A DNA stretch of 25,582 nt from Chloroflexota bacterium (lineage in GTDB: Bacteria > Chloroflexota > Anaerolineae > Caldilineales > Caldilineaceae), in the NCBI GenBank assembly GCA_003577005.1, contig QEUW01000215.1:1-25582 (forward strand), in the 5' to 3' direction. A model generated the notes under the pieces. It did not search any database, was not told the DNA's origin, and saw only the letters and a list, made by a program, of their open reading frames with translations. The number at the start of each line of letters is the position of its first letter. Within the stretch, counting starts at the first letter, position 1. Position numbers and translations under genes: made by a program. Below, in pieces: positions 2,814 through 22,911 of this stretch.

Positions 2814-3644
2814 TCAAACACGAATCAGCGCCGCCACCAAGTTAAAATAACGGGCAGCATATGGCGCAATCTCTGTTGGCGGGCGCCCCCCTTGTGCCGT
2901 TACATGCGGCGCCAGATCTTCCATTGCGGCGGCGAGCCGGCGCAGGTAATCGATACGCAATAGTGGCTCCTCCGGTGGTGGTGATTGGTCTATCCCTTCC
3001 GGCAAGGTGACATCGGCAAAACGCGCCACCTGTTGCAACGAACCCACTGGTGGCGCCAGCACTTCCTCTCTGGGTGAGCGGGCAATGTACTTGGCCGTGA
3101 TCAGCAGCATCGCCCAAAACATATTGGCCTCCTGCGTCGCCACCTCCTCCGGCGGGCGTGGCGGGACGGGCTGGTAGGTGAAGTGGGCCGGCGTTTCCTG
3201 TTTGGGCAGCCCGGCGCGGTCGAACAAAACCTTTGTTTCGCTTGGGATAGCGGCGACGGACCGGCGCACCCAATACCAGTCTATCTGGTGTGGGCCATCA
3301 TCGCCGGGGTAGAGCGCCATATTATAGACGCCGCCCGGCGGCCAGTTTTGCGGCGCTTCGAGGATAAGCAACGGTTCCCCCAGTTGGGCCATAAAGGCAG
3401 GGCGGTTGGCCACAATCTCGTCGTGATACTCGTCGGCGGTGACCACAAAGAGGTCAATGTCGCTGAGTTCGTCGGCATCGCCGCGGCCGAGCGAGCCAAA
3501 GAGCCATGCCGCCACCACGCGTTGATCCGCATTGAGCACACTTTGCGCCTGTACTAACAAACGGTCACGTTCATGTTCAAAGTGCCGCAGACGCGTGCGC
3601 AGGTACGGGTCTGTATCGTTGTGCCGCAGGACTGATTTAGCCAT
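2814..3644 (-). CDS. Nucleotidyltransferase-fold protein (pol beta superfamily, ANT-like)
   Basis: A 276-aa protein with the pol-beta-superfamily metal site [16 protein letters not shown] (50-65), the GSxxRG...SDxD pattern of aminoglycoside and other small-molecule nucleotidyltransferases. A later QIDWYW (about 122-127) may supply the third carboxylate. The C-terminal half is helical and proline-rich, with no second family I can name. I take the ATG at 3644, which overlaps the end of thrC by 8 bases (ATGGCTAA). An ATG at 3662 would add six residues, and neither has a strong Shine-Dalgarno. The overlap suggests co-transcription with thrC. The substrate cannot be told: drug modification is possible, but the context is housekeeping, not a resistance cassette. 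Confidence 0.8.
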
Positions 3645-5031
3645 TTCGGGCCGCCGATTCATCCAACCTGCGGGCAATGGTCTCGTTGACAATCCGGGCG
3701 TCGGCTGGCAGATAGACGGGTGGATTGGCAAGCTGGCTCTCGACTTCGTCCAGGCTGCCCTCGTGATAGCCCACCTTAAAGCCGGTAAACTTTAGCCCGT
3801 GCGCCGTGCTGATCACCACGACCCGGTCAGACGATCCGATTACGCCCCGGTTGACCAGCTTGAAAAGAACCGCAAGCGCTACCCCCGTGTGCGGACAGGT
3901 ATACATGCCGGTCAGGTCGGCCAGGGCAGCAGCATGGGCCAGCTCGTGTTCGCTGGCCTGTTCGACGATGCCGTCGGTCATCTGCACGGCCTGCACCGCC
4001 TTTTCGTAGCTCACCGGGTCGCCGATCTGGATGGCCGAAGCCAGCGTCTTGCCGGCAGCCAGCCGTTTCTTTTCTTGAAACCCGGCCAGATAACTCTGAT
4101 AGAACGGGTTGGCCTTTTCCGCCTGCGCCGCTACCAGCCGTGGCAGCTTGTCGATAAGACCCAGGTCGAGCAGCAGCTTGAGTCCTTTATAGAGCGCGCT
4201 GATGTTGCCCAGGTTGCCAACGGGAATGACGATCCAGTCGGGCACCTCCCAGTCGAACTGGCGCACGATCTCGATTGCGACCGTCTTTTGTCCTTCGACC
4301 CGGATGCTGTTCATCGAGTTCGCCAGATAGATGCGGTTGTCCTGCGTCACCTCTTGCACAATGCGCATACAGCCGTCGAAGTCGGTGTCCAGTGCCAGGA
4401 CGTGGGCGCCGTTGGCGACGGGCTGGATCAGCTGTGCGGTGCTCACCTTGCCCGCCGGCAAAAAGATGATGGCCGGGATGCCAGCGCAGGCGGCGTAGGC
4501 GGCCAGCGCTGCACTGGTGTCGCCGGTGCTGGCGCAGGCCACCGCCTGGGGCGCAACCCGGCCTGGTCCGGCGTCGGCCATCATCTGTTTGACGACGCTG
4601 ACCAGCACAGTCATGCCCAGGTCTTTGAAGCTGCCGGTATGGCTGTTGCCACAGAGCTTGACCCACAGGTCGGCGACGCCGATCTGCTTGCCCAGCCGCT
4701 CGGCCCAGTAGAGATTGGTGTTGCCCTCGTACATGCTGACCACATTTTCGTCGCGCACATCGGGCGCCACCCACTCGCGCATCCCCCACACGCCGCTGCC
4801 GTAGGGCCAGGTCGTCGCGCCGACGCGACTGTCGATCAGCCGGCGCCATTCGTCTGCGCTGCGCTGGCGCAAGGCCGGCAGATCGTGCTGCACCTCTAGC
4901 AGCCCCCCACAGGTGGGGCAAGTGTAGATGACCTCATAGAGCGAATATTCGCCCGGACAGCCGCGAAAACAACGAAATGCGGCGCGATAGGGCACAGCCG
5001 TAGCCGCACGTGCATCGGTTAACGTGGTCAT
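3637..5031 (-). CDS. thrC: Threonine synthase with N-terminal zinc ribbon
   Basis: PLP-dependent enzyme that converts O-phosphohomoserine to threonine, the last step of threonine synthesis. The 464-aa product has the PLP-lysine motif GSFKD (Lys136) within [10 protein letters not shown], which is preceded by SMYEGNTNL, the substrate-side loop. A zinc-ribbon-like pair, C21-x3-C25 and C38-x2-C41, sits at the N-terminus, as in the longer archaeal/actinobacterial/Chloroflexota-type ThrC. Downstream are a glycine-rich phosphate loop region ([10 protein letters not shown]) and the [12 protein letters not shown] segment. The frame is open to 5274, but the ATG at 5031 is chosen because it has AAGGG about 9 nt upstream and begins just before conserved sequence. 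A promoter candidate lies at 5134-5163. It is the first gene of the probable thrC-NTase-trmB-methyltransferase operon. Confidence 0.93.
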
Positions 5032-5133
5032 ACTTCTACCCTTGGCATGGATTTGTCGGTTCGTGTGATAACCTGACCCAAAGACGTGTAATGGTCGGGC
5101 GCAAATCCTTCTCTCGTCAAACCGCCGGGTAAA

Positions 5134-5163
5134 AGTATGCGTTGGCAACGGGTGCAATGTCAA
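5134..5163 (-). promoter_or_regulatory. Sigma-70-like promoter for thrC
   Basis: On the minus strand there is a perfect TTGACA (5163-5158) and, after an 18-bp spacer, CATACT (5139-5134), which matches 4 of 6 positions of TATAAT. Transcription would start near 5127, giving a leader of roughly 95 nt before the thrC ATG. No T-box or other riboswitch is recognised in that leader. Confidence 0.5.
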
Positions 5164-5249
5164 ATTGTCTGGCGGATAGCCAACAATTCCAAAGTTGAAA
5201 GCGATGGAGCGCGGGTTTGGCGGTTGAGGCGGGTATAGGCTCCTCTCGG

Positions 5250-5285
5250 CAACAACAAAGACGAGGACAGCCACAGCTGTCCTCG
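5250..5285 (-). terminator. Intrinsic terminator of the first exoprotein gene
   Basis: A perfect 10-bp stem, CGAGGACAGC (5262-5271) with GCTGTCCTCG (5276-5285), has a 4-nt loop. Read on the minus strand it is followed by the T-rich tract TCTTTGTTGTT. It lies about 90 bp after the stop codon of the 5375-6982 gene and separates it from the thrC promoter. Confidence 0.75.
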
Positions 5286-5374: not shown

Positions 5375-6982
5375 TCAATTCCGTGTAATGGGCAAGAAGA
5401 CCCGATGGGCAAAGCCTGTCTCGTTCAATTCTTCGGGCTGAGGCGAGGCGTACCCTTCGCCCCAAATGCGGGCTGCACGGACACCCGTCGTAGGCGCCAG
5501 ACAGGTGTAGAGCAACCCGATCGAATCATTGGCGTAGAAGCTCCAGTCGGCCTCAAATGGGATGTCAAGAACCAGTTCCTGCACCATCATCTGGTTGTCG
5601 ATGGTCTGATAGGGGTTGGCCGTATCGCCATCGGCGATCCAGGCGTTGACCCGGTTATCGTCGTCGTCGTCGATCACTACAGCACCCATGGTGATACCCG
5701 GCCCGATCCGGCCGATGGGAAAGGCCCCATGGAGCGCCTGCGGGAACTGGCAATCCCCGGCGCAGGCCCACACACGCTCCCTTGACGATTGCGCTGTATA
5801 GTGTTGCTGATCGCCAACCGCCACACCCGGCTCCACCACAAAGCGGAAGGGGCTAAATCGCTTCACCACAAAGAGGTCGTAGCCAGCAGGCAAGATGTAG
5901 GAGCCGCTGCCCTCGCCCAGGTAAGTGACCTTTGGCAGTTCGAGCACACCGTACAGGTCAACCGGACAGACAGTGGTGATGGGAATACCGTAGTAATGAC
6001 TAGGATCAGTATCGGTCACCGGGATGGTTGGGTCGGCTGGTGTCTGCGCTGTTACAGTTGCCATATTTGCGTATTGGCCCAGACGCGCCACGCCCTCCAA
6101 TGTGCAGGTCATGCTTTCGCCTACCGCCAATGTCGTCTGTGGACAGCGGACCGTTCCCTCTTCGTCATCTACCAGTTGCACATCGACCAGCGGTGTGTCG
6201 CCCGTGTTGCGGATGACGTAGGTCCATGTAACCTTTTCGTCTACCGGGATCAGGGGCCCAGTAGCCAGGTCAGCATCTTCGCCATTCGTCGCCTTTTCCA
6301 GGTCAATGGCCGGGTTGAGCGCCGCCTGAAAGATGTACTTCACGGTGATAGTGGCCGAGGCGGCGGTGTCGTAGACAAGCGAAAGATTGCCGCCACCTTG
6401 CCCGCTTACGCTGCCGCTTGCCTTCACAGTCATCTGGATCTGGCCGGGGCCGCTAAAGAGGGCCAACTCTTCCGGCGTGTCGAGCACGGTGGTTTCGGCC
6501 AGGTCAGCTGCAACCAATTGCGGAAAGACGCCACCGGACAGGCCGCTGTAGTCAAGCGCGCCATCGAACGGAGCCAACAGGATTGAGCGAGAGGTGCGCG
6601 GGTTTGCGCTAGCCAGCGTAACGCCATCGGGCCCAATCAATTCAAGCCAGCCGGCCATCTCGGTCGTGACCAATGTCTCACTGGCGTCGAGGCTTTCGAA
6701 ACGCACCGAGCCTTCCAACCGGCTGGAGAAGGAGATCTCCACGCGTTGGAGCGCCCCCAGTTGCGTGTTGAACTTTGGCACAGCCACCGGGCTGACGAAG
6801 TCAGTCGCAGTCAAGGGTATCTCGCGCGTGATGATGTTATCGGCGGCCTTTGCTGCGGTAGCCGGCGAGAGCGCGAAGAGCCAGATGCCGACAGCTGTAC
6901 CGAAGAAGTACAGCCAGACCGATCGGGTCACACGGCGCTCCGTCCCCACTGATTGCATAAGCGGTCTTATCATGCTGCTCAT
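5375..6982 (-). CDS. Secreted choice-of-anchor-E/DUF11-like protein with unrecognised C-terminal domain (exoprotein 1)
   Basis: A 535-aa predicted exported protein. The start at 6982 is fixed by AAGGAG 7 nt upstream; the frame is open to 7093. A basic n-region and hydrophobic core (about residues 20-40) with an ATAAKA-like cleavage region form a signal peptide. Residues about 48-245 resemble the choice-of-anchor E domain, which includes FNTQLGALQRVEISF and the GSVSGQGGGNLSL stretch. One DUF11-like beta-sandwich domain (about 248-350) starts with IDLEKATNGEDAD and contains WTYVIRNTG. The last ~180 residues form a domain I cannot name, with RVWACAGDC, PGITMGAVVIDDDDDNRVN and IPFEADWSFYANDS, also found in exoprotein 3. 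The protein ends in RVFLPITRN. No transmembrane anchor, LPXTG or PEP-CTERM is present. Probable cell-surface or matrix protein; the role is unknown. Confidence 0.85.
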   Translation of the reverse strand: MSSMIRPLMQSVGTERRVTRSVWLYFFGTAVGIWLFALSPATAAKAADNIITREIPLTATDFVSPVAVPKFNTQLGALQRVEISFSSRLEGSVRFESLDASETLVTTEMAGWLELIGPDGVTLASANPRTSRSILLAPFDGALDYSGLSGGVFPQLVAADLAETTVLDTPEELALFSGPGQIQMTVKASGSVSGQGGGNLSLVYDTAASATITVKYIFQAALNPAIDLEKATNGEDADLATGPLIPVDEKVTWTYVIRNTGDTPLVDVQLVDDEEGTVRCPQTTLAVGESMTCTLEGVARLGQYANMATVTAQTPADPTIPVTDTDPSHYYGIPITTVCPVDLYGVLELPKVTYLGEGSGSYILPAGYDLFVVKRFSPFRFVVEPGVAVGDQQHYTAQSSRERVWACAGDCQFPQALHGAFPIGRIGPGITMGAVVIDDDDDNRVNAWIADGDTANPYQTIDNQMMVQELVLDIPFEADWSFYANDSIGLLYTCLAPTTGVRAARIWGEGYASPQPEELNETGFAHRVFLPITRN

Positions 6983-7267
6983 TGTTACGCTCCTTATGTT
7001 ACGCTTTCCATTACAGTGTTTATAAACTCTATTGCACCTTCTTGAGCCTCCCGGCAGGAAGAGCAAGCTAACAACCGGGGGTCTATCGTACAATATACGA
7101 ATATGCTACGACATTTATACGTCTTGCCGTTGTCATTCTGTCATCCTCTTGACGTATCTAATACGTAAATCGTTCCCCGATATGTAAATCCTTCGATTGA
7201 GCAAGATATTGGCCGGGAATAGATAAAAGGATGTACCCCTTTTCTGCTTGTTGGGGGACCGGTCAAA

Positions 7268-7319
7268 AGATAGCTAGAATGCAACGACCCCAGCTGTTCC
7301 AAAACAGCCGGGGTCGTTG
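7268..7319 (-). terminator. Intrinsic terminator of the repeat exoprotein gene
   Basis: Arms 7282-7298 and 7303-7319 form a 17-bp stem with a 4-nt loop. The only irregular pair (7292/7309) is A-C on the plus strand but G-U in minus-strand RNA, so the stem is complete only in the transcript of the minus-strand gene ending at 7343. It is followed by a moderately T-rich stretch (CATTCTAGCTATCTTTTG). Confidence 0.7.
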
Positions 7320-7342
7320 GGGGCCTGTGCGAGTTTGCGATA

Positions 7343-10177
7343 CTACCGGTGTTGCTGCACAAATGGCAAGAGGAGGCGGGTGCTTTGCCCCACCGCTGGT
7401 TCCTCGCTCTCGTCGAGCGAACTTGGTCGTGGATTGCAGTAGTGGCTGGGGTCGGTGGCGACCAGGTCGAGCACGCGTACGGTGGCAAGATTAAAGTAGG
7501 TGCTGCGGGTAACGTTGGCCTCGTCGCGGCAGCCGTCGACAATGATGACACCGGCGGTGGTTTCGAGGTTAACAGCGGTGCTCATGGCAAAATAGCGCCA
7601 CGATTCACCCGGCGCCAGCAGATCATCGCCATCATCGCTGGCGGGGTCGAAGAGAGGCGCCACGGTTGTGTAGCTATCGGTCACGGTGATTTGGGCGCGG
7701 GGAAAGGTGATCGTGCCGGTGTTGGTGATGATAAAGGTCCACGTGACTGGCCGGCCATCCTCGATCACCGGCACATCCGCCCCATTGGGGTCATCGGCGT
7801 CGGCGCCATTGGTGAATTTCTTGATGGTGATGCCCGGGACGACACCCGCTTCCGGCGGGTTGCAATAGTGTGCAGGGTCCTCGTCTTCTGCGCCGGGGAT
7901 GACCACTCGCCCGATGTTGCGATAGGTGTTGCGCAAAACGGGGAACCCAAACCCGAGGGGGTCGCAGCCATTGATCACCGTTGTATTGGGGCTCGGGTTG
8001 TCCAGATCTTCCACCTGGGTGGTGGCAAAGTAGCGCCAGGTTTCGCCGGGCGAGAGAATCTCGTCGCCGTCGTCGCTGGCGGGGTCAAAGATGGGCGTGA
8101 CCGCCGGATGGCTGTCTGTCACGACCACGTCGCTGCGGTTGAAGGCAAGATTCCCAGTATTGGTCACCAGGTAGGTCCAGGTGACGACCGCGCCCGGGTT
8201 CAACTCGGGCACATCGACATCGTTTGGATTGTCGGCATCGGCGTTGTTGACGAATTTCTTGATGACGATGTTTGGCCCAGGCGGGTTACAATAGTGCGCC
8301 GGGTCCTCGTCTTCTGCACCGGGGACCGTCACCTGTCCCATGTTGCGGTAGGTCTCTCGTTCGCCTGGCACGGCCAGACCACCGGGATTACAACCATCGA
8401 CAACAACCGTGCCGGGTTCGGGTGTTCTCAGTTCCTGGGCAACGGCAGAGGCGCGATAGAACCAGGTTTCGCCCGGCGAGAGAATCTCATCGCCGCCTGC
8501 ATCGCTGAGGGGATCGAATAGCGGTGTCACACCAGGCTGGCTGTCGGTGACGACTACGCTGGCGCGTAGAAAGGGTAGGTTGCCCGTATTGGTCACGCGG
8601 TAGAGCCAGTTGACCGTTTCGCCCGGCACCAGTTGGGGAACATCGGGGGCGTTCGGGTCATTGGCGTCGGCGTTGTTGACCAGTTTGACGATTTCGATCC
8701 CCGGCGCCGGTGGGTTGCAGTAGTGGCTGGGGTCAAAATCAGTCAGCGTGTTGACGATCACGGTTCCCACATTGCGGTAGGTTGCGCGCGCCAGCCCGGT
8801 TCCCGACGGGTCGCAGCCGGGCACAGTGACCGTACCGATAGCGGTGCTGAGCAGGTTTTGCGCCACGCCCACCACCTGATACCGCCAGACTTCCCCCGGC
8901 GCCAGGAAAGCGTCGCCGTCGCCGTCATCCACCAACACCGGTGTTACCCCCGGTTGGCTGTCGGTGACGACCACGCTGGCGACCGGGTAAGAGACGGTGC
9001 CAGTATTGGTGACTACATAGGTCCATGTCACCGTGGCGCCCGGCGCAATGAGCGGCACATCAGGGTCATTGGGGTTGTCGGCATCGGCGTTATTGGTAAA
9101 TTTCTTGATTTCGATCCCCGGCGCCGGATTGCAATAGTGGCTGGGGTCCGTGTCGGTCAGGTTGTTGACGGTCACTGCGCCGATGTTGCGATAGGTGTTC
9201 CGTGTAAGACCGGTGCCGCTGGGGTCGCAGCCCGGCACGATGGTCGTACCGCCGGTGGCGTTGCTCAGATTTTGCGCCGGCAGCGTCGCGACATAGAGCC
9301 AGACTTCGCCCGGGTCGAGGATGCCATCGGCGCCCACATCGCTCGCCGGCACAAACTGGGGTGTGACGCCAGGTTGGTCATCGGTGACGACGACTTCAGC
9401 CAGGGTAAACGGAACCGTGCCTGTGTTGCGGACGCGGTAGGTCCAGACCACCGTATCTCCCGGTGGAATCTGCGGCACATCTCCGTCATTGGGGCCATCG
9501 GCGTCGCGCCCATTGGTAAACTTCTCAATGTCGATGCCTGGGGTGGAAAAAAAGTACGTGATCGACACCACCACCGACGCAGCCTGTGCTCGCAACAGAG
9601 CGCTCAGATTGCCTGGCCCGCGAATAAAGGAGATGCCCGAAGCCAGCGCTGGGATTGAAACATTACCCGTTCCGATAAAAGGAGCCATATCCACGGCGCC
9701 GGTCAGGGTGAGCGAAATCTCCTTGGTATTGGAGATGGAGAAGGTTCGGCCTGACAGCCCATCAAAGTCGAGCACATTGTCAAAGGGCGGAACCAGTTCG
9801 ACGCGAGTGGTTGAGGGAATACTCTCTACGGCAAGGTTATTTGGCAAAGTGACATGGATGGTAACGCTGTGTGTGGCTGAAATGAGCGCAGCATTGGGGC
9901 CTGTATTCTCGTACTGAACATCACCCTGAACAAAACCTTCGACGGCGATACGGACGGCGTTTAGCTCTCCCAGTGCAGGGTCGAATTGAGGCAGGGCGAG
10001 TGTGCCGCTCCAGTTCGTCGGCGTTACCGGCCCAGAGCGACAGTCGTTCGTCGGGCTGGGTGGGAATGCGGCGCAATAGCTGATCTCAGCCGCGTTGGCC
10101 GTGCGGCTTGCCAACGCCCACAGCCCAAACGCAATGAAACAGACAACAAGTGGACGGATTGCTAGCGCACTCTTCAT
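7343..10177 (-). CDS. Large secreted protein: choice-of-anchor-like domain plus five DUF11-like repeats (exoprotein 2)
   Basis: A 944-aa exported protein. The ATG at 10177 has AGGAT about 8 nt upstream. A signal peptide occupies residues 1 to about 29 (hydrophobic core VVCFIAFGLWALA, cleavage after ANA). Residues about 30-210 are a beta-rich domain that resembles the N-terminal domains of exoproteins 1 and 3 (FDPALGELNAVRIAVEG, FDNVLDFDGLSGRTF, GTGNVSIP). Five tandem domains of about 140 aa follow. Each begins like PGIEIKKFTNNADADNPN, contains WTYxVTNTG and VVVTDSQPGVTP, and ends in DPSHYCNP; each carries two conserved cysteines. These match the DUF11/DUF7507 type of repeat found in bacterial surface proteins. 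The Asp-rich starts may bind calcium (inference). The tail is TRLLLPFVQQHR. There is no membrane anchor. Likely an extended surface or matrix stalk. Confidence 0.87.
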   Translation of the reverse strand: MKSALAIRPLVVCFIAFGLWALASRTANAAEISYCAAFPPSPTNDCRSGPVTPTNWSGTLALPQFDPALGELNAVRIAVEGFVQGDVQYENTGPNAALISATHSVTIHVTLPNNLAVESIPSTTRVELVPPFDNVLDFDGLSGRTFSISNTKEISLTLTGAVDMAPFIGTGNVSIPALASGISFIRGPGNLSALLRAQAASVVVSITYFFSTPGIDIEKFTNGRDADGPNDGDVPQIPPGDTVVWTYRVRNTGTVPFTLAEVVVTDDQPGVTPQFVPASDVGADGILDPGEVWLYVATLPAQNLSNATGGTTIVPGCDPSGTGLTRNTYRNIGAVTVNNLTDTDPSHYCNPAPGIEIKKFTNNADADNPNDPDVPLIAPGATVTWTYVVTNTGTVSYPVASVVVTDSQPGVTPVLVDDGDGDAFLAPGEVWRYQVVGVAQNLLSTAIGTVTVPGCDPSGTGLARATYRNVGTVIVNTLTDFDPSHYCNPPAPGIEIVKLVNNADANDPNAPDVPQLVPGETVNWLYRVTNTGNLPFLRASVVVTDSQPGVTPLFDPLSDAGGDEILSPGETWFYRASAVAQELRTPEPGTVVVDGCNPGGLAVPGERETYRNMGQVTVPGAEDEDPAHYCNPPGPNIVIKKFVNNADADNPNDVDVPELNPGAVVTWTYLVTNTGNLAFNRSDVVVTDSHPAVTPIFDPASDDGDEILSPGETWRYFATTQVEDLDNPSPNTTVINGCDPLGFGFPVLRNTYRNIGRVVIPGAEDEDPAHYCNPPEAGVVPGITIKKFTNGADADDPNGADVPVIEDGRPVTWTFIITNTGTITFPRAQITVTDSYTTVAPLFDPASDDGDDLLAPGESWRYFAMSTAVNLETTAGVIIVDGCRDEANVTRSTYFNLATVRVLDLVATDPSHYCNPRPSSLDESEEPAVGQSTRLLLPFVQQHR
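7431..9543 (-). repeat. Five in-frame tandem repeats of 411-440 bp inside exoprotein 2
   Basis: Repeat boundaries, judged from the recurring PGIxIxKF start, are near 9543, 9123, 8707, 8282 and 7842, with the last unit ending near 7431. The protein copies are clearly alike, but the DNA has diverged, so these are old domain duplications and not a recent DNA-level array. Confidence 0.85.
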
Positions 10178-10468
10178 GATGGTTATCCTATCTTGATCAC
10201 TGTGGGCGAATTGCGGCGGGAGACGATGAGTGGCATCAGTGCAATCAGGTCGACGCTCATCAGGACGGCGCGTCCCGACCCAGGCTCCGGCGAGTTCAAA
10301 CAGCCGGTAGCTTTCCGGAGACTATAGTGTACCGAACAAACGAGCGGTTACGCCGGCCCTGCAGCGGCGAGTGAGTTCTGAGGTATATATCCGGCCAATG
10401 CATCCCCTCACCGGCCGAATCAGGGCCTAAGGTGGCGTTCAACGTTATCCGAAATATTCCTTTACATC

Positions 10469-10496
10469 ATCAATGTATCAAGATCAATGTATCAAG
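10469..10496. repeat. Perfect 14-bp tandem duplication
   Basis: ATCAATGTATCAAG occurs twice head to tail (10469-10482 and 10483-10496) in the leader region upstream of exoprotein 2. It could be a recent slippage duplication or a doubled regulator site. Confidence 0.9.
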
Positions 10497-10671
10497 CTGG
10501 ATACGAGGCCGGCGGCAGCGCTGAATGCCACCGGTCGCTAAAGCGAACATTTACATTATACTGATTTCGTAAAAATATGCATCTCGCATCAAGCGATGTA
10601 GGGGTTTGTCTACCTGTAGCGTCTCTTGCCGTGACCAGCCGGTGGTGAGGAGCTTTCTCGGGTGGCTGTGC

Positions 10672-10720
10672 TCGCCTGGGTTATATGGGCCCGGCAGGTA
10701 CACCCATGTGACCCAGGCGA
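10672..10720 (-). terminator. Long inverted repeat after exoprotein 3 (possible terminator)
   Basis: Arms 10672-10689 and 10703-10720 pair over 18 positions with two exceptions, around a 13-nt loop, 8 bp after the stop codon of the minus-strand gene ending at 10728. The two exceptions are U-G pairs in plus-strand RNA but A-C mismatches in minus-strand RNA, and no T-run follows on the minus strand. The placement fits a terminator, but the pairing does not favour that strand. Confidence 0.45.
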
Positions 10721-10727
10721 CTATCAC

Positions 10728-12320
10728 TCAACGTTCACTAGCAAAGATGGTTGGGAGAAAGAGTTGGCGATTTGGTTGTGAATCCGCGTTGCCGGCGCGC
10801 CGGGCGCCGCTTGGGCCGACGACATCTGGCGACCAGCCAAGCCCCGGCGGCATGATACAGACATGGACAATGCCCACTGAGTCGGCTGCATAGTAGCTCC
10901 AATTGGCCGCCATGGGGATCTCAAAGATGAGATGTTGCACCATCACTTGTTCTTCGATGGGATACTCGGTAGTCACACCGTTTACCTCACCGACCCAGCG
11001 ATTGACGCGTTTATCATTGTCATCATCGATCACCACGGCTCCAATCGTAATGCCTGGTTCAAGGTAACCCAGTTCGACGGGGCCATCCACATGTGCAACA
11101 AAGTCACAGTCACCTGTGCAGGCCCAGACGCGCTGCTGGATATCTTGTCTAGGATTGATGTCTACCGGGAGGTCGAGCACGCGTTCCCCGCCGGCGTTGA
11201 CCTCGCCTAGGACGGTTTCAAAGTGGAAGTGGCGGCCTGTCGAGATACGTCGTTTGACAATAAAGACGTCATACTCGTCGGGCAAAATATACGTGCCGTG
11301 CCCAAAGCCTAGAAACTGGATGTCCGGTGTCTCCACGTGTCCATCGCCGTCGAGCGGGCAGAGGGAAACCGTACTGGCATAATAGTTGCTGGGGTCGCTG
11401 TCATGCACCTCACGCCTGGGGTTGACGCCATCATCAGGTGTCTTAGCTGTTACTGTGGCGACGTTGGTGTATTGCCCAACCTGGGCGCCTGTTGTGCTTG
11501 CCAACGTGCAGAGCATGGTGTCGCCGGCGGCCAGCGTGGTGCCAGGGCAGGAGATCGTCCCTTCCTGGTCATCCAGAATCACCACCTCTTCCAGATCGAC
11601 CGTGCCCGTGTTGGTCACAATGTAGGTCCACGTTACAGGATCGCCAGGGGCAAGAAAAACGCCAGGCGCGTCGTCAGCGTCCTCGCCATTGGTGAATTTT
11701 TCGAGATCAACGCTGGTGCCCTGGTATAAATAAGTGACGGTTACAAAGGCCGAGGCTTCGGTGATATAACTGAGCGCCAGGTTGCCGCCCCCCTGTCCGC
11801 TTGCCCTTCCACTGGCGTTGACCGGGAGCAGGATCGAACCTTCGCCGGTAAAGAGGGTGAGATCGGTCGCTTCGGTAAAGATATCGCTTTCGACGATATG
11901 GATACCAACCAGGCGGGGGAAGAGACGCCCCGACTCGCCGGCAAAATCGATGACGCCATCAAATGCGCTGACCGCTTCTGTAACCGAAGCCACGGGGATC
12001 GACTCGATAATCGTGGAGCCATTGGGTCGCTGTAAGGCCACGTTGGCCGACATCCCAACGGTGACCTGGGTAGCCTGGGCGTCGAGGCTCTCAAAGCGCG
12101 CTTGGCCCTGCAAACGACCATCCAGGACAAATTCAACGCCGGTGAGGAAGCCAATATCGGCGTCAAAACGGGGAAAGCGCATTGCATCCGACCAGTCGGT
12201 GGGTTGAAGGTCAATGGTGTCGGTATAGACCTGGCGCGCCTGTGCATATGTAGTCGTAGGGAGCAAACAGACAAGCCACGCGATTACAGCCGCAATGAGA
12301 AACCTGGAGAGCACGCACAT
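10728..12320 (-). CDS. Secreted choice-of-anchor-E/DUF11-like protein, paralogue of exoprotein 1 (exoprotein 3)
   Basis: A 530-aa exported protein. The ATG at 12320 is chosen because AGGAGG lies 7 nt upstream and a signal peptide begins there (hydrophobic FLIAAVIAWLVCLL, cleavage near TYAQA); the frame is open to 12518. Residues about 28-235 are the choice-of-anchor-E-like domain (FDADIGFLTGVEFVLDG, SGQGGGNLALSY). One DUF11-like domain follows (SVDLEKFTNGEDAD, WTYIVTNTG). The C-terminal ~185 residues match the unrecognised domain of exoprotein 1: LCPLDGDG, GTYILPDEYDVFIVKR, RVWACTGDCDF, PGITIGAVVIDDDNDKRVN, MAANWSYYAADS. The tail is RQLFLPTIFASER. Order and domain content equal those of exoprotein 1, so the pair arose by duplication, with exoprotein 2 between them. 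Function unknown; probably at the cell surface. Confidence 0.85.
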   Translation of the reverse strand: MCVLSRFLIAAVIAWLVCLLPTTTYAQARQVYTDTIDLQPTDWSDAMRFPRFDADIGFLTGVEFVLDGRLQGQARFESLDAQATQVTVGMSANVALQRPNGSTIIESIPVASVTEAVSAFDGVIDFAGESGRLFPRLVGIHIVESDIFTEATDLTLFTGEGSILLPVNASGRASGQGGGNLALSYITEASAFVTVTYLYQGTSVDLEKFTNGEDADDAPGVFLAPGDPVTWTYIVTNTGTVDLEEVVILDDQEGTISCPGTTLAAGDTMLCTLASTTGAQVGQYTNVATVTAKTPDDGVNPRREVHDSDPSNYYASTVSLCPLDGDGHVETPDIQFLGFGHGTYILPDEYDVFIVKRRISTGRHFHFETVLGEVNAGGERVLDLPVDINPRQDIQQRVWACTGDCDFVAHVDGPVELGYLEPGITIGAVVIDDDNDKRVNRWVGEVNGVTTEYPIEEQVMVQHLIFEIPMAANWSYYAADSVGIVHVCIMPPGLGWSPDVVGPSGARRAGNADSQPNRQLFLPTIFASER

Positions 12321-12795: not shown

Positions 12796-13512
12796 CTAGC
12801 TGCTGGCCGGGGACGCAAGAAACAGTACAGCGGCCGCAACTTCAGCGGCTGTACCCAAACGCCGGATAGGTGTATCTGCGTGCCAGCGCAACCGCTCTTC
12901 CTCCGTAGCCCCGGCGCCCAATAGATCAGTCTCGATGCGGCCCGGCGCTACGGCGTTGACGCGTATGTTGTGCCCGATCACCTCGCGCGCCAGCGAACGG
13001 GTGAAGGCGATCAACCCGCCCTTGGCTGCGGCATAATGGGCGTGATAGGCCGAACCACGCTGACCGGCTATCGATGCGATGTTGATGATTACGCCCGAAC
13101 GGGCGGCGATCATGGCGGGCAGCACGGCGCGGCAGCAGTAGAACGCCCCAGTCAGATTGGTGCGCAACACCTGCTCCCATTCCTCATCGCTTATCTCTAC
13201 CACCGGTGTACGTGGAAAAATACCGGCATTGTTGACCAGGATATCAAGGCGGCCATGCTCCGCCAGCACGTTCGCCACCAGGGTATCGACTGCGCTGCGG
13301 TTGCTCACATCGACCTGGCGCGCTGTTACCCGGCCATCCAGGCCGATGTGAGCAACCGCAGCGCAGACTGCCTCTGCCGCCGCATGGTCACTGTGATAAC
13401 AAAAGGTGACAGCACAGCCCGCCGCAGCCAGCGCCAGCGTAACCGCCCGGCCGATCCCGCGCGAGCCACCGGTTACCAGGCCGACTGCACCGGAAAATTG
13501 AGGATCTCTCAT
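12796..13512 (-). CDS. Short-chain dehydrogenase/reductase, C-terminally shortened
   Basis: A classical SDR of 238 aa that would use NAD(P)H. It has the TGGSRGIG dinucleotide loop (14-21), NNAG (94-97) and the catalytic set Ser147, Tyr160 and Lys164 with normal spacing. The closest family type is FabG-like 3-oxoacyl/polyol dehydrogenase. It starts 6 bp after the kinase gene stop, so it is almost certainly in the same operon, perhaps oxidising a polyol to the sugar the kinase phosphorylates (inference). The end is odd: the protein stops at FLASPASS, where the family normally continues through a VTGxxxxVDGG segment of about 12-15 residues. Reading past the TAG in frame gives RAPTGYILLN, which resembles that missing segment, so the gene may carry a nonsense mutation or a rearranged end. 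Whether it is active is uncertain. Confidence 0.85.
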   Translation of the reverse strand: MRDPQFSGAVGLVTGGSRGIGRAVTLALAAAGCAVTFCYHSDHAAAEAVCAAVAHIGLDGRVTARQVDVSNRSAVDTLVANVLAEHGRLDILVNNAGIFPRTPVVEISDEEWEQVLRTNLTGAFYCCRAVLPAMIAARSGVIINIASIAGQRGSAYHAHYAAAKGGLIAFTRSLAREVIGHNIRVNAVAPGRIETDLLGAGATEEERLRWHADTPIRRLGTAAEVAAAVLFLASPASS

Positions 13513-13518
13513 TGGACT

Positions 13519-15045
13519 TTACGCTATATCCGCCAACTTTTGGAACGATTCTTTCAACGCTGGATAAAGCCCCCGGTATACCGGGTACAACGCATCATAG
13601 CGCCTGGCGACTGCGGGCTGGGGTTGATAGATCGCGCCCCGTTGCACCATGCCCACCACCGCATCCTCCACGCTCGGGTAAAGCCCAACCGCCGCGGCTG
13701 CCACAATCGCATCCCCCAGCGGCGCACCTGTGGCGGCTGCCGGCAGGTGCAGCGGGCGGTTGAGCACATCGGCCTTGATCTGATTCCAGATCGCACTGCG
13801 CGAACCGCCGCCAACGCAGGCCAGTCTTGCCAGCGGGAAGCCGCCAGTCGCAGCCGCTTCGACATTGTGGCGTAGACCAAAGGCGGCCCCTTCCATGATG
13901 GCGCGCACCAGGTCGGCCTTTTGGGTCGCCAGGGAGAGGCCAAAAAAGACGCCGCGCGCATCACTGTCCCAGATCGGTGACCGCTCGCCGTACAGATAGG
14001 GCAAAAAGAGCAAGCGATTGGCCCCGGGTGGACTTTGTGTGGCAAGCTGGCTCAGCCGCTCAAAAGGGTCGATGCCCAGCCGTTCCGCCTCGTGACGTTC
14101 GACCTCACCCAGTTGGTCGCGGAACCAACGCAGCGCTCCACCCGACGCCACTAGCGCACCCACCACCAAATGCTTGCCCGGTACGGCGTGACCTAGCGGG
14201 ATCAGTTCGTTACCCAGATAGGAACGGTCACTGCAGATGAGCAAGACGGTGGACTGGCCGGTCATTTCCACGGCGTCACCGGCGTTGACCAGACCGGCCT
14301 CCACTGCCGCGGCCGTCCCGTCGGTCATGCCGGCGATAACGGGAGTGCCCGACGCCAGCCCCGTTGCCTCGCCTGCGCTGGCGGTCACCTCACCCACGAT
14401 TGCGCCGCAAGGCTGGAGCGCCGGCAGCCGGGCAGGGTCGATCCCCATCTGCTCTAACAATGGCTCTGACCAGTTCTGACGCTTGCTATCAAAACAGAGG
14501 GTAATCGGCCCATGCGAAAGGTCCATACCAAAGACGCCACACAGATGCCGGACGATATAGCCATTGGCCTGCAATACCTGGTGCGTTTCGCCATAGCGGT
14601 CGGCAGCGTGCTCTTTGAACCAGAGCAATTTGGGCGCCAGATAGTAGGGGTCGATGCGCCCGCCATTGGTCTGGGTGATCACCTCTTCGCCAATCTGTTC
14701 CCGCAACCAGGCGCATTGCGGTTCCGAGCGCCGGTCCATCCAGATCAGGGCCGGCGCCAGCGGGCGGCCCTGGCGATCCACTGCCGTCATTGTGGGCGCC
14801 TGGCAACTGACGCCCACCCCGGCGACGGCCCGAGCATCGATCCCGTGCTGCGTAAAAAGCTGGCGCAGCACAGCACAGGTTGCCCGCCACCAATCCTCCG
14901 GGTCCTGCTCGGCCCAGTTGGGCTGGGGGTAGTGGGTCGGATATTCCTGACCGGCCTGGGCCAGGGGTGTGCCAGCAGGGTCAAAGACCACAGCCTTGGC
15001 GCTCGTCGTACCGATGTCGATGCCGATCAAGAGGCGTTTTGGCAT
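13519..15045 (-). CDS. xylB: FGGY-family sugar kinase, xylulokinase-type
   Basis: ATP-dependent sugar kinase of 508 aa, the usual FGGY length. Features are the N-terminal phosphate loop GIDIGTTSAK (8-17), WMDRR, the conserved GMTDGTAAAVEAGLVNAGD region with EMTGQST, and the C-terminal ATP-site GGGSRSAIWNQIKADVLNRP. The sequence fits xylulokinase (D-xylulose to D-xylulose 5-phosphate) best, but related FGGY kinases for other ketoses or polyols cannot be excluded. The start at 15045 has AAAGGAG 6 nt upstream; the frame is open to 15246. The SDR gene follows after 6 bp. No xylose isomerase or sugar transporter is in the window, so the substrate is unproven. A palindromic operator-like site overlaps its likely promoter. 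Confidence 0.85.
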   Translation of the reverse strand: MPKRLLIGIDIGTTSAKAVVFDPAGTPLAQAGQEYPTHYPQPNWAEQDPEDWWRATCAVLRQLFTQHGIDARAVAGVGVSCQAPTMTAVDRQGRPLAPALIWMDRRSEPQCAWLREQIGEEVITQTNGGRIDPYYLAPKLLWFKEHAADRYGETHQVLQANGYIVRHLCGVFGMDLSHGPITLCFDSKRQNWSEPLLEQMGIDPARLPALQPCGAIVGEVTASAGEATGLASGTPVIAGMTDGTAAAVEAGLVNAGDAVEMTGQSTVLLICSDRSYLGNELIPLGHAVPGKHLVVGALVASGGALRWFRDQLGEVERHEAERLGIDPFERLSQLATQSPPGANRLLFLPYLYGERSPIWDSDARGVFFGLSLATQKADLVRAIMEGAAFGLRHNVEAAATGGFPLARLACVGGGSRSAIWNQIKADVLNRPLHLPAAATGAPLGDAIVAAAAVGLYPSVEDAVVGMVQRGAIYQPQPAVARRYDALYPVYRGLYPALKESFQKLADIA

Positions 15046-15076
15046 AACAAACTCCTTTGCCTGGTTGCGTGCCGCG

Positions 15077-15113
15077 ATTATAGCGCAAGAAGGGATGCTG
15101 GCATAGCATCCCT
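15077..15113 (-). promoter_or_regulatory. Kinase promoter with overlapping palindromic operator
   Basis: On the minus strand a perfect TATAAT lies at 15082-15077, about 32 nt upstream of the kinase ATG. Immediately upstream is a perfect 9-bp palindrome, AGGGATGCT (15091-15099) and AGCATCCCT (15105-15113), with a 5-bp centre that covers the spacer and -35 position. No good -35 box is present. This is the expected position for a LacI/GntR-type repressor site or for an activator; which regulator is not known. Confidence 0.55.
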
Positions 15114-15247
15114 CATACCTGGGATTAAAGTCACGCAAGACAAGAAGTCGGTAGTTGCACCCTTGCGACATCTCTTGTTCAAACAGCCTATAACTGGAGA
15201 TGAGAACGTTTGGCGTGGCACAGAGAATCGAGTAGACTGGCGCCATA

Positions 15248-16621
15248 ATGGTACGAGATTATCGCACGATACGGCGCGTTCTATTGATCACTTTTGCCCT
15301 CAACCTGCTGGCCACCGCTCCCAAGCTGGGTGTTGGCATCTGGACGGGCGCGCTCAGCCTCATCGCCGACGGATTGGATTCGCTCTTTGATGGCCTCTCC
15401 AATCTCATCGGTGTGATCGCCGTGGGCATCAGCAGCCAGCCACCCGACGACGAGCATCCCTATGGTCATCGCAAGTTCGAGACCCTGGCCGCGCTCTTTA
15501 TTGCCGGCGCTCTCTTTTTGTCGGCCTGGGAACTGGCAAGCGGTGCGATTGCCCGGCTGCTCGACCCGCCACCGCTGGTGGTCAACCGGTGGATGATCGG
15601 CGCGCTGCTCTTTGGCGCCGTCATCCAGGCCGCCGCTGGGCTGTGGGAACTGCGTCAAGGGCGCCGGTTAGAGAGCGAGGTGCTCATCGCCGACGCCCGC
15701 CACACCCTGGCCAGTATCAGCGTGAGTGGCGTTGTGCTGATCGGATTAGGAGTGGTCTGGCTGGGATACGGCTGGGCTGACCCGGCGGTGGCGCTGGTAG
15801 TGGCCGCGCTGATCGCACGGATTGGGGTCCAGACAGTGCGCGAAAATATACCAGCGCTCGTGGATCGGGCGCCGCTTGACGCCGCCCATATCGGCGCCAT
15901 TGTGGCCGCGGTCAGCGGTGTGGAGAGCTACCATCGTATCCGCAGCCGGGGGCCGGCGGACACGGTGGCCATAGACCTGCATGTGCGGGTGGCGCCCAAC
16001 CTCTCGGTGCAAGAAGCCAACGCTATCGCCGATGAGGTGCGGCGCCGGCTGCTCGCCCAACCCGGTGTGGACGATGTCACCGTGCATGTCGAGGCCCAGC
16101 GCGGGCCGGACGCCGCCCCCGATCTTTACGCCGCTACCCGTCTTGCCGCCCAAGAAATCGGCGTCACGATCCACGAATGGTGGGTGCAGATGACCGACCA
16201 GCAGTTGAGTTTGCATCTACATGTTGGTGTTGACCCCAACCTGACGCTGGCCGAGGCGCATAGCCTGGTCGATCAACTGGAGCAGCTTCTCTGCGAACGG
16301 CAGCCGGAGATCCAGTCGATCCACACGCACCTGGAACCGGCCAGCGCCGAGATTTTGCCCAGCGCGCGCGTGAGCAGCGGTTTGCAGGAACGGGTACGGG
16401 CGGCCGTTGTGGCAGCGGCTGCACAGATCCCCCACTTGCGCGAACCGCACGAAATCCAGGTGCGCCAGGTGGAGGGCAAGCTGTTCGTGACGCTGGATGT
16501 TCTTGTGGATGGCGGTCTTTCGATGACCGAAGCGCATGATCTGAGCACCCAGTTGCAAGACGCCATCCGCACCAATGTGCCCAACGTGGGTGAGGCGTTG
16601 GTGCATCTGGAGCCGCGCTAA
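15248..16621 (+). CDS. Cation diffusion facilitator transporter with three C-terminal dimerisation-like domains
   Basis: A 457-aa CDF-family inner-membrane protein expected to exchange divalent metal for protons. Six membrane segments can be placed in residues 1-200. Compared with the YiiP metal site (Asp45, Asp49, His153, Asp157), this protein has Asp44 and Asp48 (in ADGLDSLFD) and His152, but Ser156 in ARHTLAS replaces the last aspartate. The loop DDEHPYGHRKFE (67-78) is a normal CDF motif. After residue 205 come three successive ferredoxin-like domains of the CDF cytoplasmic type, at about 212-290, 295-370 and 380-457; most family members have one. The last two each carry a LxxAHxLxxQL-type helix and end in HLEP. 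The ATG at 15248 has no strong ribosome site. It is divergent from the kinase operon with about 200 bp between. Confidence 0.88.
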   Translation: MVRDYRTIRRVLLITFALNLLATAPKLGVGIWTGALSLIADGLDSLFDGLSNLIGVIAVGISSQPPDDEHPYGHRKFETLAALFIAGALFLSAWELASGAIARLLDPPPLVVNRWMIGALLFGAVIQAAAGLWELRQGRRLESEVLIADARHTLASISVSGVVLIGLGVVWLGYGWADPAVALVVAALIARIGVQTVRENIPALVDRAPLDAAHIGAIVAAVSGVESYHRIRSRGPADTVAIDLHVRVAPNLSVQEANAIADEVRRRLLAQPGVDDVTVHVEAQRGPDAAPDLYAATRLAAQEIGVTIHEWWVQMTDQQLSLHLHVGVDPNLTLAEAHSLVDQLEQLLCERQPEIQSIHTHLEPASAEILPSARVSSGLQERVRAAVVAAAAQIPHLREPHEIQVRQVEGKLFVTLDVLVDGGLSMTEAHDLSTQLQDAIRTNVPNVGEALVHLEPR

Positions 16622-18106: not shown

Positions 18107-18149
18107 GCTATCGGCTTGACACTCTATCATGAATCAGGGGAGCGTTGGT

Positions 18150-21100: not shown

Positions 21101-22811
21101 GGCCAAGCCCGGCGAGGGCGGCCAGTTGCCCGGCGCCAAGGTCTACCCGTGGATCGCCCGTGTGCGCCACTCGACGCCCGGCGTCGGGCTGATCTCGCCG
21201 CCTCCGCACCATGACATCTATTCGATTGAGGACCTGGCCGAGTTGATCCACGACCTCAAGAACGCCAACCACCACGCTCGTATCAGCGTCAAGCTGGTCT
21301 CTGAAGTCGGTGTGGGCACGATTGCGGCTGGCGTCGCCAAAGGGCACGCCGATGTCATCCTCATCAGCGGCCACGACGGCGGCACCGGCGCTTCGCCGCA
21401 AACCAGCATCAAGTACGCCGGTCTGCCGTGGGAGTTGGGTGTGGCTGAAACGCATCAGACGCTGGTGCTCAACAACCTACGCAGTCGAGTCGCCGTGGAG
21501 ACCGATGGCCAGCTCAAGACCGGGCGCGATGTGGCGATTGCCGCGCTGCTCGGCGCTGAGGAGTTTGGCTTTGCCACCGCGCCGCTGGTTTCGCTCGGCT
21601 GTATCATGATGCGTGTCTGCCATCTGGACACCTGCCCAGTGGGCGTGGCGACGCAGAACCCGGAACTGCGCAAGAAATTCGTCGGCGAGCCCGAAGATGT
21701 GGTCAACTTTATGTTCTACATCGCCGAGGAGCTGCGCGAGATCATGGCGCAGCTTGGTTTCCGCACCCTTAACGAAATGGTGGGCCGGGTGGACAAGTTG
21801 GAGCCGCGCCAGGCCATCGACCACTGGAAGGCCAGCGGCATCGACCTCTCGGCGCTGTTGTGGGAGCCGCCGGTGGACGATGAGGTGGGCCGCTACTGCC
21901 AGATCCCGCAGGACCACGGGTTGGAGAAGGCGCTCGACAACCGGGTGCTGCTCGGCCTGGCCCAACCAGCGTTGGAGCGGGGTGAACCGGTCAAAGAGAC
22001 GGTGCCGATCCAGAACACCGACCGCGTTGTCGGCACCGTTGTCGGCAGCGAGATCACCCGCCGTTACGGCGCCGATGGTCTGCCCGACGACACCATCCAC
22101 TTCCACTTCCAAGGGTCGGCCGGCCAGAGCTTTGGCGCCTTTATCCCAAAGGGTCTGACGCTCGAACTGGAGGGTGACGGCAACGATTATTTTGGCAAGG
22201 GGCTCTCCGGCGGCAAGATCATCGCCTACCCGCCGCGCGCATCGACCTTTGCCGCCGAGGAGAACATCATCATCGGCAACGTCGCCTTCTATGGCGCCAC
22301 AAGCGGCGAGGCGTACATTCGCGGCGTGGCCGGCGAGCGCTTCTGTGTGCGCAACAGCGGCGTCCATGCTGTCGTCGAAGGTGTGGGCGACCATGGCTGT
22401 GAATACATGACCGGTGGCCTTGTCGTGGTTCTTGGCCAGACCGGGCGCAACTTTGCGGCGGGGATGTCGGGCGGTATCGCCTATGTGATCGACTGGGAGG
22501 GTGATTTTGACATCCGCTGCAACAAAGAGATGGTGCTGTTTGAGAAGCTAGAAGACCCGGTGGAGATCGCCCAGGTCAAGGCGATGGTGCAGCGCCATGC
22601 GGATTATACGCAGAGCGCCCTGGGATACCGGGTGCTGCTACGCTGGGATGAGCTGCTGCCCAAGTTTGTCAAGGTCTATCCGAAGGATTACAAACGCATG
22701 ATGGAGGCATTTGCCGAGGTCAAGGCCAAGGGGTTGAGCGGCGAGGATGCTGTCATGGCCGCATTCGAGATCAACAAGAGCGATGTGGCGGCGCGCGTGG
22801 CAGGAAATTAG
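18150..22811 (+). CDS. gltB: Glutamate synthase, large (alpha) subunit
   Basis: Transfers the glutamine amide to 2-oxoglutarate, giving two glutamates, with GltD as the electron-input subunit; central to ammonia assimilation. The 1553-aa protein has all domains in order. The N-terminal class II glutamine amidotransferase has Cys28 (in DACGVGF) as nucleophile after a short propeptide. The central domain follows, then the FMN-binding (beta/alpha)8 synthase domain (about 895-1100: [33 protein letters not shown]). [3Fe-4S] cysteines 1151, 1157 and 1162 have the family spacing C-x5-C-x4-C. The C-terminal GXGXG beta-helix spans about 1305-1470. I prefer the ATG at 18150 to that at 18129: AGGGGAG lies 7 nt upstream of it and nothing suitable precedes 18129. 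gltD follows after 100 bp that contain a hairpin repeat. Confidence 0.96.
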
Positions 22812-22817
22812 CAGATC

Positions 22818-22890: not shown

Positions 22891-22911
22891 TAGCTTTTAG
22901 GGGAAGATGAG

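Follow-up and report, generated by a model that had tools for sequence, protein, structure and literature searches.

Several families of C-terminal tags occur on exported proteins of prokaryotes. The tags paired with exosortase (PEP-CTERM), rhombosortase (GlyGly-CTERM), archaeosortase (PGF-CTERM) and myxosortase (MYXO-CTERM) are tripartite signals with a hydrophobic transmembrane (TM) segment (PMC11980579). In addition, release 20 of NCBIfam holds two models of a "YLP-box putative sorting motif", NF050076 (sort_motif_YLP) and NF053834 (ultrashort_CTERM), and a model of a divergent sortase, NF053836 (sortase_YLP). No paper on the YLP-box motif was found in the literature, and the letters YLPLV led to unrelated subjects among the matches listed.

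In this work, we describe three exported proteins that share a short Leu-Pro (LP) tail. They are encoded in a stretch of 25,582 nucleotides from a Caldilineaceae genome (phylum Chloroflexota), referred to as the window. The original prediction took this tail for a possibly undescribed signal, a claim that the presence of YLP-box motif models and a sortase_YLP model in NCBIfam overturns.

Exported proteins of the window and their tails

The three proteins (exoproteins 1–3) are encoded by tandem genes on the reverse strand that span positions 5375–12320 (Table 1). The observation of a shared LP tail on them is confirmed: open reading frames (ORFs), predicted signal peptides and hydropathy all agree with three exported proteins that have a Leu-Pro tail and no membrane segment. 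A signal peptide was called in 3/3 by a crude predictor, while a search for TM-like segments gave none; since the mean Kyte-Doolittle value of 19-residue windows past residue 60 never exceeds 1.37, no TM anchor is evident in these proteins. Their bodies had been likened to the choice-of-anchor E family, and all three indeed match NF033208 (choice_anch_E), with E-values of 8e-34, 3e-27 and 1.2e-33 and scores of 117.4, 96.0 and 116.8 bits for exoproteins 1, 2 and 3, all above the curated cut-off of 23.8.

Table 1. Features of the window and their positions
Feature	Position	Strand	Remarks
PLP-dependent enzyme (Pfam PALP; threonine synthase-like by eye)	3637..5274	minus	Conserved neighbour
Exoprotein 1, 535 aa	5375..6982	minus	Start as in database copy P0023; predicted signal peptide, choice-of-anchor E domain, DUF7507 domain, linker, LP tail
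Tail RVFLPITRN, YLP-box-like	5378..5404	minus	C-terminus of exoprotein 1
Exoprotein 2, 944 aa	7343..10177	minus	Start as in database copy P0121; predicted signal peptide, choice-of-anchor E domain, five DUF7507 stretches, acid/Pro linker, LP tail
Tail RLLLPFVQQHR, YLP-box-like	7346..7378	minus	C-terminus of exoprotein 2
Exoprotein 3, 530 aa	10728..12320	minus	Start as in database copy P0001; predicted signal peptide, choice-of-anchor E domain, DUF7507 domain, linker, LP tail
Tail RQLFLPTIFASER, YLP-box-like	10731..10769	minus	C-terminus of exoprotein 3; also in alignment A1

All three tails place a [FYL]-L-P core at the extreme C-terminus, as expected of a YLP-box; the residue after the proline is I, F or T, and 4–7 residues follow to the end. 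The window proteins gave no match to the NCBIfam models of LPXTG, PEP-CTERM or GlyGly-CTERM, and they have neither the layout of an LPXTG substrate (motif, TM helix and basic tail) nor that of a PEP-CTERM protein (PEP motif and TM helix). NF050076 and NF053834 gave no match to the window tails at E ≤ 10, a search in which HMMER filters may drop weak ones. The window tails, unmatched by either model, thus represent a more relaxed variant of the YLP-box. In the family of the window proteins, 7/36 tails match NF050076 and 5/36 match NF053834, and outside the window the two models match 5/7 tails of the [FY]LPL[VIM]xx type. The window shows that present NCBIfam models cover only part of the tail family, and that annotation therefore undercounts the tail.

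Exoprotein 3 has 169 homologues, of which 120 were listed; 21 of those listed cover at least 80% of it, each with an ending of the form [FYL][LF]P plus 4–8 residues. Of these, 19 are foreign and two belong to the window itself, P0001 being exoprotein 3 and P0023 exoprotein 1. In the Caldilineaceae genome CHL12, the same three genes occur in tandem with all three tails kept, at 57–69% identity, and are followed by a threonine synthase-like gene in the same order as in the window. Since both the 19 foreign homologues and this tandem keep the tail, the window tails are not a product of chance. The PALP gene itself lies outside the tail system and serves as a synteny marker with CHL12.

Among the matches listed, an LP-like tail ends 107 of 237 homologues, and in 83 of these 107 the free C-terminus lies 4–5 residues past the proline. 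Identity in alignment A1 is 49% in the seven tail-core columns, 17% in the 30 preceding linker columns and 52% in the body, with the proline of the core kept in 16/16 sequences; body and tail are parted by a variable, gap-rich linker. That the tail stands in place of a known anchor, as originally proposed, is supported by two homologues from other phyla (P0074 and P0117), which carry a hydrophobic stretch and an Arg-rich end at the same position. No solved structure matching alignments A1 or A2 was found.

The tail on unrelated exported proteins of Chloroflexota

YLPLV-type ends on secreted Chloroflexota proteins, which the original prediction had mentioned, are real: [FY]LPL[VIM]xx ends occur on unrelated exported proteins across the phylum. 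Searched as a DNA pattern followed by a stop codon in 301 Chloroflexota genomes, this ending gave 164 matches versus 85 for the reversed control, and 13 genomes reached at least four matches versus 2 for the control; in 100 Actinomycetota, the pattern gave 8 matches versus 13 for the control. NF053834 counts range from 15 to 87 in 13 pattern-rich genomes and are 0 in three large Chloroflexota genomes, against a background in which 2/100 Pseudomonadota genomes reach 12 matches (E ≤ 10). High counts in one NF053834 survey are lower bounds, as about 31 candidates were scored; genome G001 has at least 30 matches there and 49 in another count.

In a 1.73-Mb sample, the strict tail pattern ended 9/330 ORFs with a signal peptide versus 1/1058 others (p = 1.8e-5); the loose pattern was leaky (16/330 versus 10/1058), and the strict one was therefore relied on. 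In 40 stretches chosen for motif matches, a crude signal peptide was present in 34 of the 38 motif-ending ORFs (≥80 aa) versus 43 of the 155 other ORFs. The last residue is Arg or Lys in 34/38 of the motif-ending ORFs, at a position that the search pattern left free. When 36 of these 38 proteins were aligned, the sole invariant columns were L-P-L, fixed by the search pattern. The enrichment on exported proteins that the original prediction called for was thus found. Since the tail follows a variable linker on unrelated bodies, it does not look, at the level of sequence, like the final strand of a single common domain.

The Pfam domains of the tail-bearing cargo are diverse; some cargo families have choice-of-anchor in their names, and some are known with sorting tags in other settings. 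Two of the tailed proteins (L186 and L294) are apparent lipoproteins and thus already possess an anchor. Its consensus can be written as [RKQ]-[LVI]-[FY]-[LIM]-P-[LIF]-[VI], placed on a Pro/acid-rich linker, usually with a basic last residue and mostly ending 4–5 residues past the proline.

Candidate partner enzymes

The divergent sortase family NF053836 is present in some tail-bearing genomes. One of them, G128, with 23 tail matches, encodes a member that combines the sortase His-Cys-Arg residues with a score of 275.4 bits (E = 2.7e-82), above the 125-bit threshold; three further genomes (G029, G436 and G437) have sortase_YLP and one tail match each. His114, Cys195 and Arg206 are invariant in 117/117 sortase_YLP homologues. 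Simple rules find an AxA-type signal peptide in 76/117 of them, and in 71/117 an LPXTG-like motif lies right after the signal peptide, which is a new detail of this family. Our own profile detected nothing NF053836-like in samples, each a small part of its genome, of Caldilineaceae, Roseiflexus-like and Chloroflexus-like genomes. Plasmids gave no match to sortase_YLP, and no solved structure matching the enzyme was found. We infer the link of the tail to sortase_YLP.

Sortases detected by PF04203 occur in 206/301 Chloroflexota genomes and in 29/30 of those with at least 10 NF053834 matches, an association (Fisher p = 1.3e-4) in which genome size and kinship are confounders. As the partner of the tail they were rejected: tail number does not increase with PF04203 sortase number (rho 0.01; −0.31 per Mb, with p = 0.049; 41 genomes, G192 family), and G192, with 15 tail matches, has no PF04203 hit. 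The PF04203 sortases scanned in tail-rich G001 (2/2) and G190 (2/5) resemble class E and do not belong to NF053836. Because PF04203 scores the G128 enzyme at 24.6 bits, below its cut-off, the PF04203 tests say nothing about NF053836. Exosortase was rejected as well, being found in 3/30 tail-rich versus 5/30 tail-poor genomes, and the LPXTG model TIGR01167 is uninformative, as it fires in 14/14 control genomes. Cis-encoded machinery was rejected because no gene recurs beside the tail cargo; the largest neighbour family in 258 ORFs comprises 3 loci.

Role of the tail and comparison with known systems

The little-studied tag of which the LP tail is a variant probably specifies where exported proteins are to be attached. 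We lean slightly towards reading the window tails as divergent YLP-box C-terminal sorting signals, by which proteins exported through Sec would be fixed to the envelope, with a sortase_YLP-type enzyme as the reader. The cargo, with its predicted signal peptide, would be exported by Sec, the short soluble tail would be recognised on the outer side of the membrane, and an acceptor in the envelope (wall or sheath) would then receive the protein. Less certainly, the most likely reader would be an exported, divergent NF053836-type sortase that cuts near the LP and transfers the protein. Several results count against this reading: the window tails match neither YLP-box model and few tails of their family do, no enzyme gene accompanies the cargo, PF04203 sortases do not track the tail, and G029, G436 and G437 have sortase_YLP with one tail match each. 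A bolder extension, which we offer only tentatively and consider doubtful, is that sortase_YLP and the YLP-box together make up a sortase system in which neither side needs a membrane anchor, a fully exported or lipid-anchored enzyme acting beyond the membrane on soluble cargo with tails of about 10 residues. The xPxTG motif at the enzyme's own mature N-terminus would be a pseudosubstrate or an attachment site, and a locally tuned version of looser specificity would act on the tails of the Caldilineaceae window.

The tail might instead never be cut, docking non-covalently as a short amphipathic strand in a groove, whether on a protein of the envelope, sheath or S-layer or on a neighbouring Ig-like domain. 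A hydrophobic core without a TM helix, a C-terminus so close to the proline in those 83 of 107 tails and the lack of a visible cis-encoded enzyme would all suit such docking; NCBIfam, however, couples the motif with a sortase by name, and the strong Leu-Pro core is reminiscent of sortase substrates, so that we regard docking as unlikely. We give less credence to a quality-control or half-life tag that an exported C-terminal processing protease (CTP) recognises or shields, without any anchoring role. PDZ/CTP protease ligands are typically hydrophobic free C-termini, and the two tailed lipoproteins are already anchored, but a fixed proline with a basic last residue is not a usual CTP determinant, and the cargo belongs to families named choice-of-anchor or bearing sorting tags elsewhere.

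A more ordinary origin, in which the tail is just the final strand of a common domain or has been inherited within a single protein family, would agree with all three window proteins being relatives; it is very improbable given that 36 cargo proteins of differing domains share as invariant only the selected tail, and that the linker before it is variable and gap-rich. Lowest of all we place an unrecognised classic tripartite signal (LPXTG, PEP-CTERM or GlyGly-CTERM). The Leu-Pro and basic end do look like a shrunken LPXTG tail, but this explanation is contradicted by the missing TM-like helix, and neither the lack of NCBIfam matches to such signals nor the exosortase counts favour it.

With dozens of exported proteins carrying it in some genomes, the tail offers a direct approach to the way in which Chloroflexota attach enzymes and adhesins to their envelope, and with NF053836 as a candidate enzyme this can be tested in cultured members of the phylum. 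As a sorting signal that lacks a TM helix, the tail would be an exception to the tripartite layout common to LPXTG, PEP-CTERM, GlyGly-CTERM and MYXO-CTERM.

The YLP-box models resemble the window tails in occupying the last 10–11 residues, in their aromatic-Leu-Pro-hydrophobic core and basic end, and in their exported carriers, whereas the window tails match neither model and have I, F or T and 4–7 residues after the proline. With the LPXTG signal the YLP tail shares a Leu-Pro core, a Pro-rich spacer before it and basic residues at the end, but it has no TM helix and few residues after the proline; sortase_YLP, for its part, differs from LPXTG sortases in being barely seen by PF04203 and in having mostly a cleavable-type signal peptide. 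Like PEP-CTERM, GlyGly-CTERM, PGF-CTERM and MYXO-CTERM, the tail is found on numerous exported proteins that are unrelated to one another but come from a single lineage, although those tags possess a TM segment and the YLP tail has none. The C-terminal domain of type IX secretion in Bacteroidota is likewise TM-less, occurs on Sec-exported surface proteins and is removed in a sortase-like manner, but it is a folded Ig-like domain, in contrast to the approximately 10 residues of the YLP tail.

The exoproteins of the window

All three exoproteins carry a predicted signal peptide, called by a crude predictor from the N-terminal hydrophobic segment, and a hydrophobicity scan revealed no second hydrophobic segment of similar kind further along any of them. 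The original prediction of three LP tails on exported-type proteins without a membrane segment is confirmed, with open reading frames (ORFs), tails and predicted signal peptides as described. Each exoprotein matches the choice-of-anchor E model NF033208, far over its cut-off, and Pfam DUF7507; exoproteins 1 and 3 are paralogues (41-43% identity). Close relatives with an organism label are Caldilineaceae (homologue P0009 and locus L001). The other genes of the window look like ordinary chromosomal ones, encoding an N4/N6 DNA methylase, a Methyltransf_4 protein, a short-chain dehydrogenase, an FGGY kinase and a cation efflux protein.

Features of the window. The first and third exoprotein ORFs are open further, to 7093 and 12518; their starts are set as in the database copies P0023 and P0001, respectively.
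Feature	Position	Strand	Length	Remark
Exoprotein 1	5375-6982	minus	535 aa	C-terminal end RVFLPITRN
Exoprotein 2	7343-10177	minus	944 aa	C-terminal end RLLLPFVQQHR
Exoprotein 3	10728-12320	minus	530 aa	C-terminal end RQLFLPTIFASER
Non-exoprotein ORF	251-1915
Non-exoprotein ORF	1864-2730
Non-exoprotein ORF	12796-13512
Non-exoprotein ORF	13519-15246
Non-exoprotein ORF	15248-16621
Two long ORFs	18129-24411			glutamate synthase subunits by eye

Conservation and distribution of the tail

The tail is maintained among exoprotein homologues. Exoprotein 3 has 169 homologues; among the 120 listed, 21 cover at least 80% of its length, and all 21, including the window's own P0001 and P0023, end in [FYL][LF]P followed by 4-8 residues. 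In alignment A1 (16 sequences), identity is 52% in the body, 17% in the 30 columns ahead of the tail and 49% in the seven tail-core columns, whose Pro is kept in 16/16. The tail core reads [RQK][LVI][FY][LIM]P[LIF][VI]. The genome CHL12 (L001:9911-18142) keeps the window order, with three LP-tailed exoprotein genes in tandem and then a threonine synthase-like gene; its tails are QLLLPAIMNNRR, LYLPLVQGNRR and LLYLPIARR, with 57-69% identity to the window counterparts. Two homologue searches listed 237 homologues, 107 of them with an LP-like tail. These were picked with the positions past Pro unconstrained, and the C-terminus lies exactly 4 residues past Pro in 57 and exactly 5 in 26; of the 102 distinct tails, 55 have Arg and 14 have Lys at the very end. 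Many homologues without such a tail are fragments or come from other phyla. The LP tail is missing from three choice-of-anchor E homologues with an Acidimicrobiia or Actinomycetota label: at the C-terminus, P0074 and P0117 show a hydrophobic stretch with an Arg-rich end, and P0069 a Gly/basic stretch.

At the DNA level, the pattern [FY]LPL[VIM]xx-stop was counted against its reversed form. It gave 11 matches vs 0 in CHL12, 26 vs 8 in 14 genomes reached via Chloroflexota-labelled loci, and 2 vs 4 in 10 genomes of other phyla. Across 301 Chloroflexota genomes, the totals were 164 vs 85; genomes with any match were nearly equal in number (69 vs 65), whereas those with at least four numbered 13 vs 2, so the excess sits in a minority of Chloroflexota genomes. 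No excess was seen in 100 Actinomycetota genomes (8 vs 13). For 42 of the 57 pattern matches located within loci, the frame that the match closes runs for at least 80 codons or reaches the locus edge; for the other 15 it is short.

In 40 stretches picked for pattern matches, 38 of the 40 matches end ORFs of at least 80 aa, and a crude signal peptide was predicted for 34 of these 38 vs 43 of the 155 other ORFs that these stretches contain. The pattern leaves the last two residues free, and the last one is Arg in 29/38 and Lys in 5/38, compared with Arg or Lys in 80/330 sampled ORFs with a signal peptide. When 36 of the 38 were aligned (leaving out L197, which is open-ended, and L198, which nearly duplicates L193), the only invariant columns were L, P and L, all fixed by the pattern; thus, nothing else is common to these proteins. 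Their domains include beta-helix, CARDB, DUF11, subtilase, Kelch, GDSL lipase, ExeM/NucH nuclease, pullulanase and choice-of-anchor T. The apparent lipoproteins of L186 and L294 (LAAC and LIAC closing the signal peptide) bear YLP-type tails, which indicates that a lipid anchor does not preclude the tail.

In 1,734,772 bases from seven tail-bearing genomes, the strict tail occurred in 9/330 ORFs with vs 1/1058 without a signal peptide (p 1.8e-5), and a looser pattern in 16/330 vs 10/1058; compared singly, none of the seven genomes reached p 0.05. The enrichment on signal-peptide proteins is present in the pooled sample. In pattern-free motif discovery at the C-termini, YLP was the most enriched 3-mer (7 vs 0, p 4.1e-5, 2166 3-mers seen), but it did not survive Bonferroni correction. 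The excess over the reversed control, together with the signal-peptide enrichment, bears out the YLPLV-type ends proposed for exported Chloroflexota proteins. As judged from these sequences, the LP tail is a lineage-wide feature of predicted exported proteins, with its excess concentrated in a minority of genomes.

YLP-box models and the candidate enzyme sortase_YLP

The signal had been proposed as possibly undescribed, which does not hold, since NCBIfam already has the models NF050076 ('sort_motif_YLP') and NF053834 ('ultrashort_CTERM'), which share the description 'YLP-box putative sorting motif-containing protein'. We found no relevant paper on the YLP-box, its accessions or YLPLV in the openly licensed literature. 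When the last ~60 residues were scanned, five of seven other tailed proteins matched one of the models, and the window's three tails matched neither; among 36 window-family tails, NF050076 matches 7 and NF053834 matches 5. The window tail is a putative YLP-box variant scoring under the present NCBIfam models. NF053834 counts were 15-87 in 13 pattern-rich genomes and 17 in genome G262, but three large Chloroflexota genomes had no match, a fourth had 2, and two genomes of other phyla had a single match each. At least 10 matches were found in 30/301 Chloroflexota genomes; two of 100 Pseudomonadota genomes reached 12, and because of this background the threshold alone is not proof.

As for partner enzymes, PF04203 sortases occur commonly in Chloroflexota, but their distribution does not follow that of the tails, and one tail-bearing genome has none; nor does the distribution of exosortase follow the tails. 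A scan covered nine sortase-like proteins, together with one neighbour protein, from six genomes. A 223 aa protein of the Bellilinea-like genome G128 (L243:1968-2636) matched NF053836, 'sortase_YLP' (E 2.7e-82), with a PF04203 score under the cut-off; hence the names in NCBIfam already link the tail to a divergent sortase. The other eight are class-E-like, including both from CHL12 and two of five from G190. The G128 protein is 76-83% identical to Bellilinea-labelled P0242, P0245 and P0248, and has 772 homologues, the named ones among the 120 listed being Bellilinea, Thermanaerothrix, Anaerolineaceae or Anaerolineae. NF053836 matched 10/10 scanned family members. Among the 120 listed (P0238-P0357), 117 have at least 195 aa, and in all 117 His114, Cys195 and Arg206 are invariant, in agreement with the sortase triad.

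By simple rules, the N-termini of these 117 look like AxA signal peptides in 76 and like lipoprotein signals in 10, with 31 unclear cases; from this signal-peptide look, many of the enzymes would have no stable anchor in the membrane once exported. The motif [IVLM]PxTG lies within the first 70 residues of 71/117 (median position 29, directly past the signal peptide; 42 are IPVTG) and later in 1, with an average of 0.6 in shuffled sequences, as if sortase_YLP carried an LPXTG-like motif on its own mature N-terminus (loci L334, L337, L340, L342, L345 and L351; IPTTG in L339).

Weak PF04203 matches led to 20 stretches, that of G128 among them, and 15 of the 20 encode sortase_YLP, which occurs in at least 11/41 genomes of the G192 family and in G029. 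In genomes of that family, many sortase domains lie within very long open frames, ~650 to 4000 codons, far above usual sortases (G240:C5:216506-216907, G445:C13:283295-283696, G440:C25:4385-4786). The sortase_YLP gene is adjoined by yebC-ruvC-like genes (by eye) in five loci (L333, L339, L341, L342 and L243/L352), and is convergent with a second sortase gene in two genomes, G128 and G457 (L243/L352, L333). No YLP-tailed gene lies beside it in the fetched stretches. Genomes bearing sortase_YLP have NF053834 counts of 1 to 23, so its presence does not predict many model-scoring tails.

Proposed mechanism and known sorting tags

The LP tail most likely acts like a C-terminal sorting tag. The cargo would be exported by Sec, and a Pro/acid-rich linker would keep the tail free, both steps being supported by sequence. 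The tail would then be read outside the membrane and the cargo fixed to the envelope, as suggested by tail position, cargo type, the C-terminal spacing that the tails favour and the pairing in NCBIfam. The candidate reader is NF053836 sortase_YLP, which is the least certain step for the Caldilineaceae of the window. The cargo without a transmembrane helix and the signal-peptide look of sortase_YLP fit together, and on this basis the system may be read as an anchor-free sortase system. The main text of PMC11980579, in which 'chloroflex' is absent, describes the LPXTG, PEP-CTERM, GlyGly-CTERM and MYXO-CTERM tags as including a transmembrane segment; the LP tail of the window, in contrast, has none and is a member of none of these classes.
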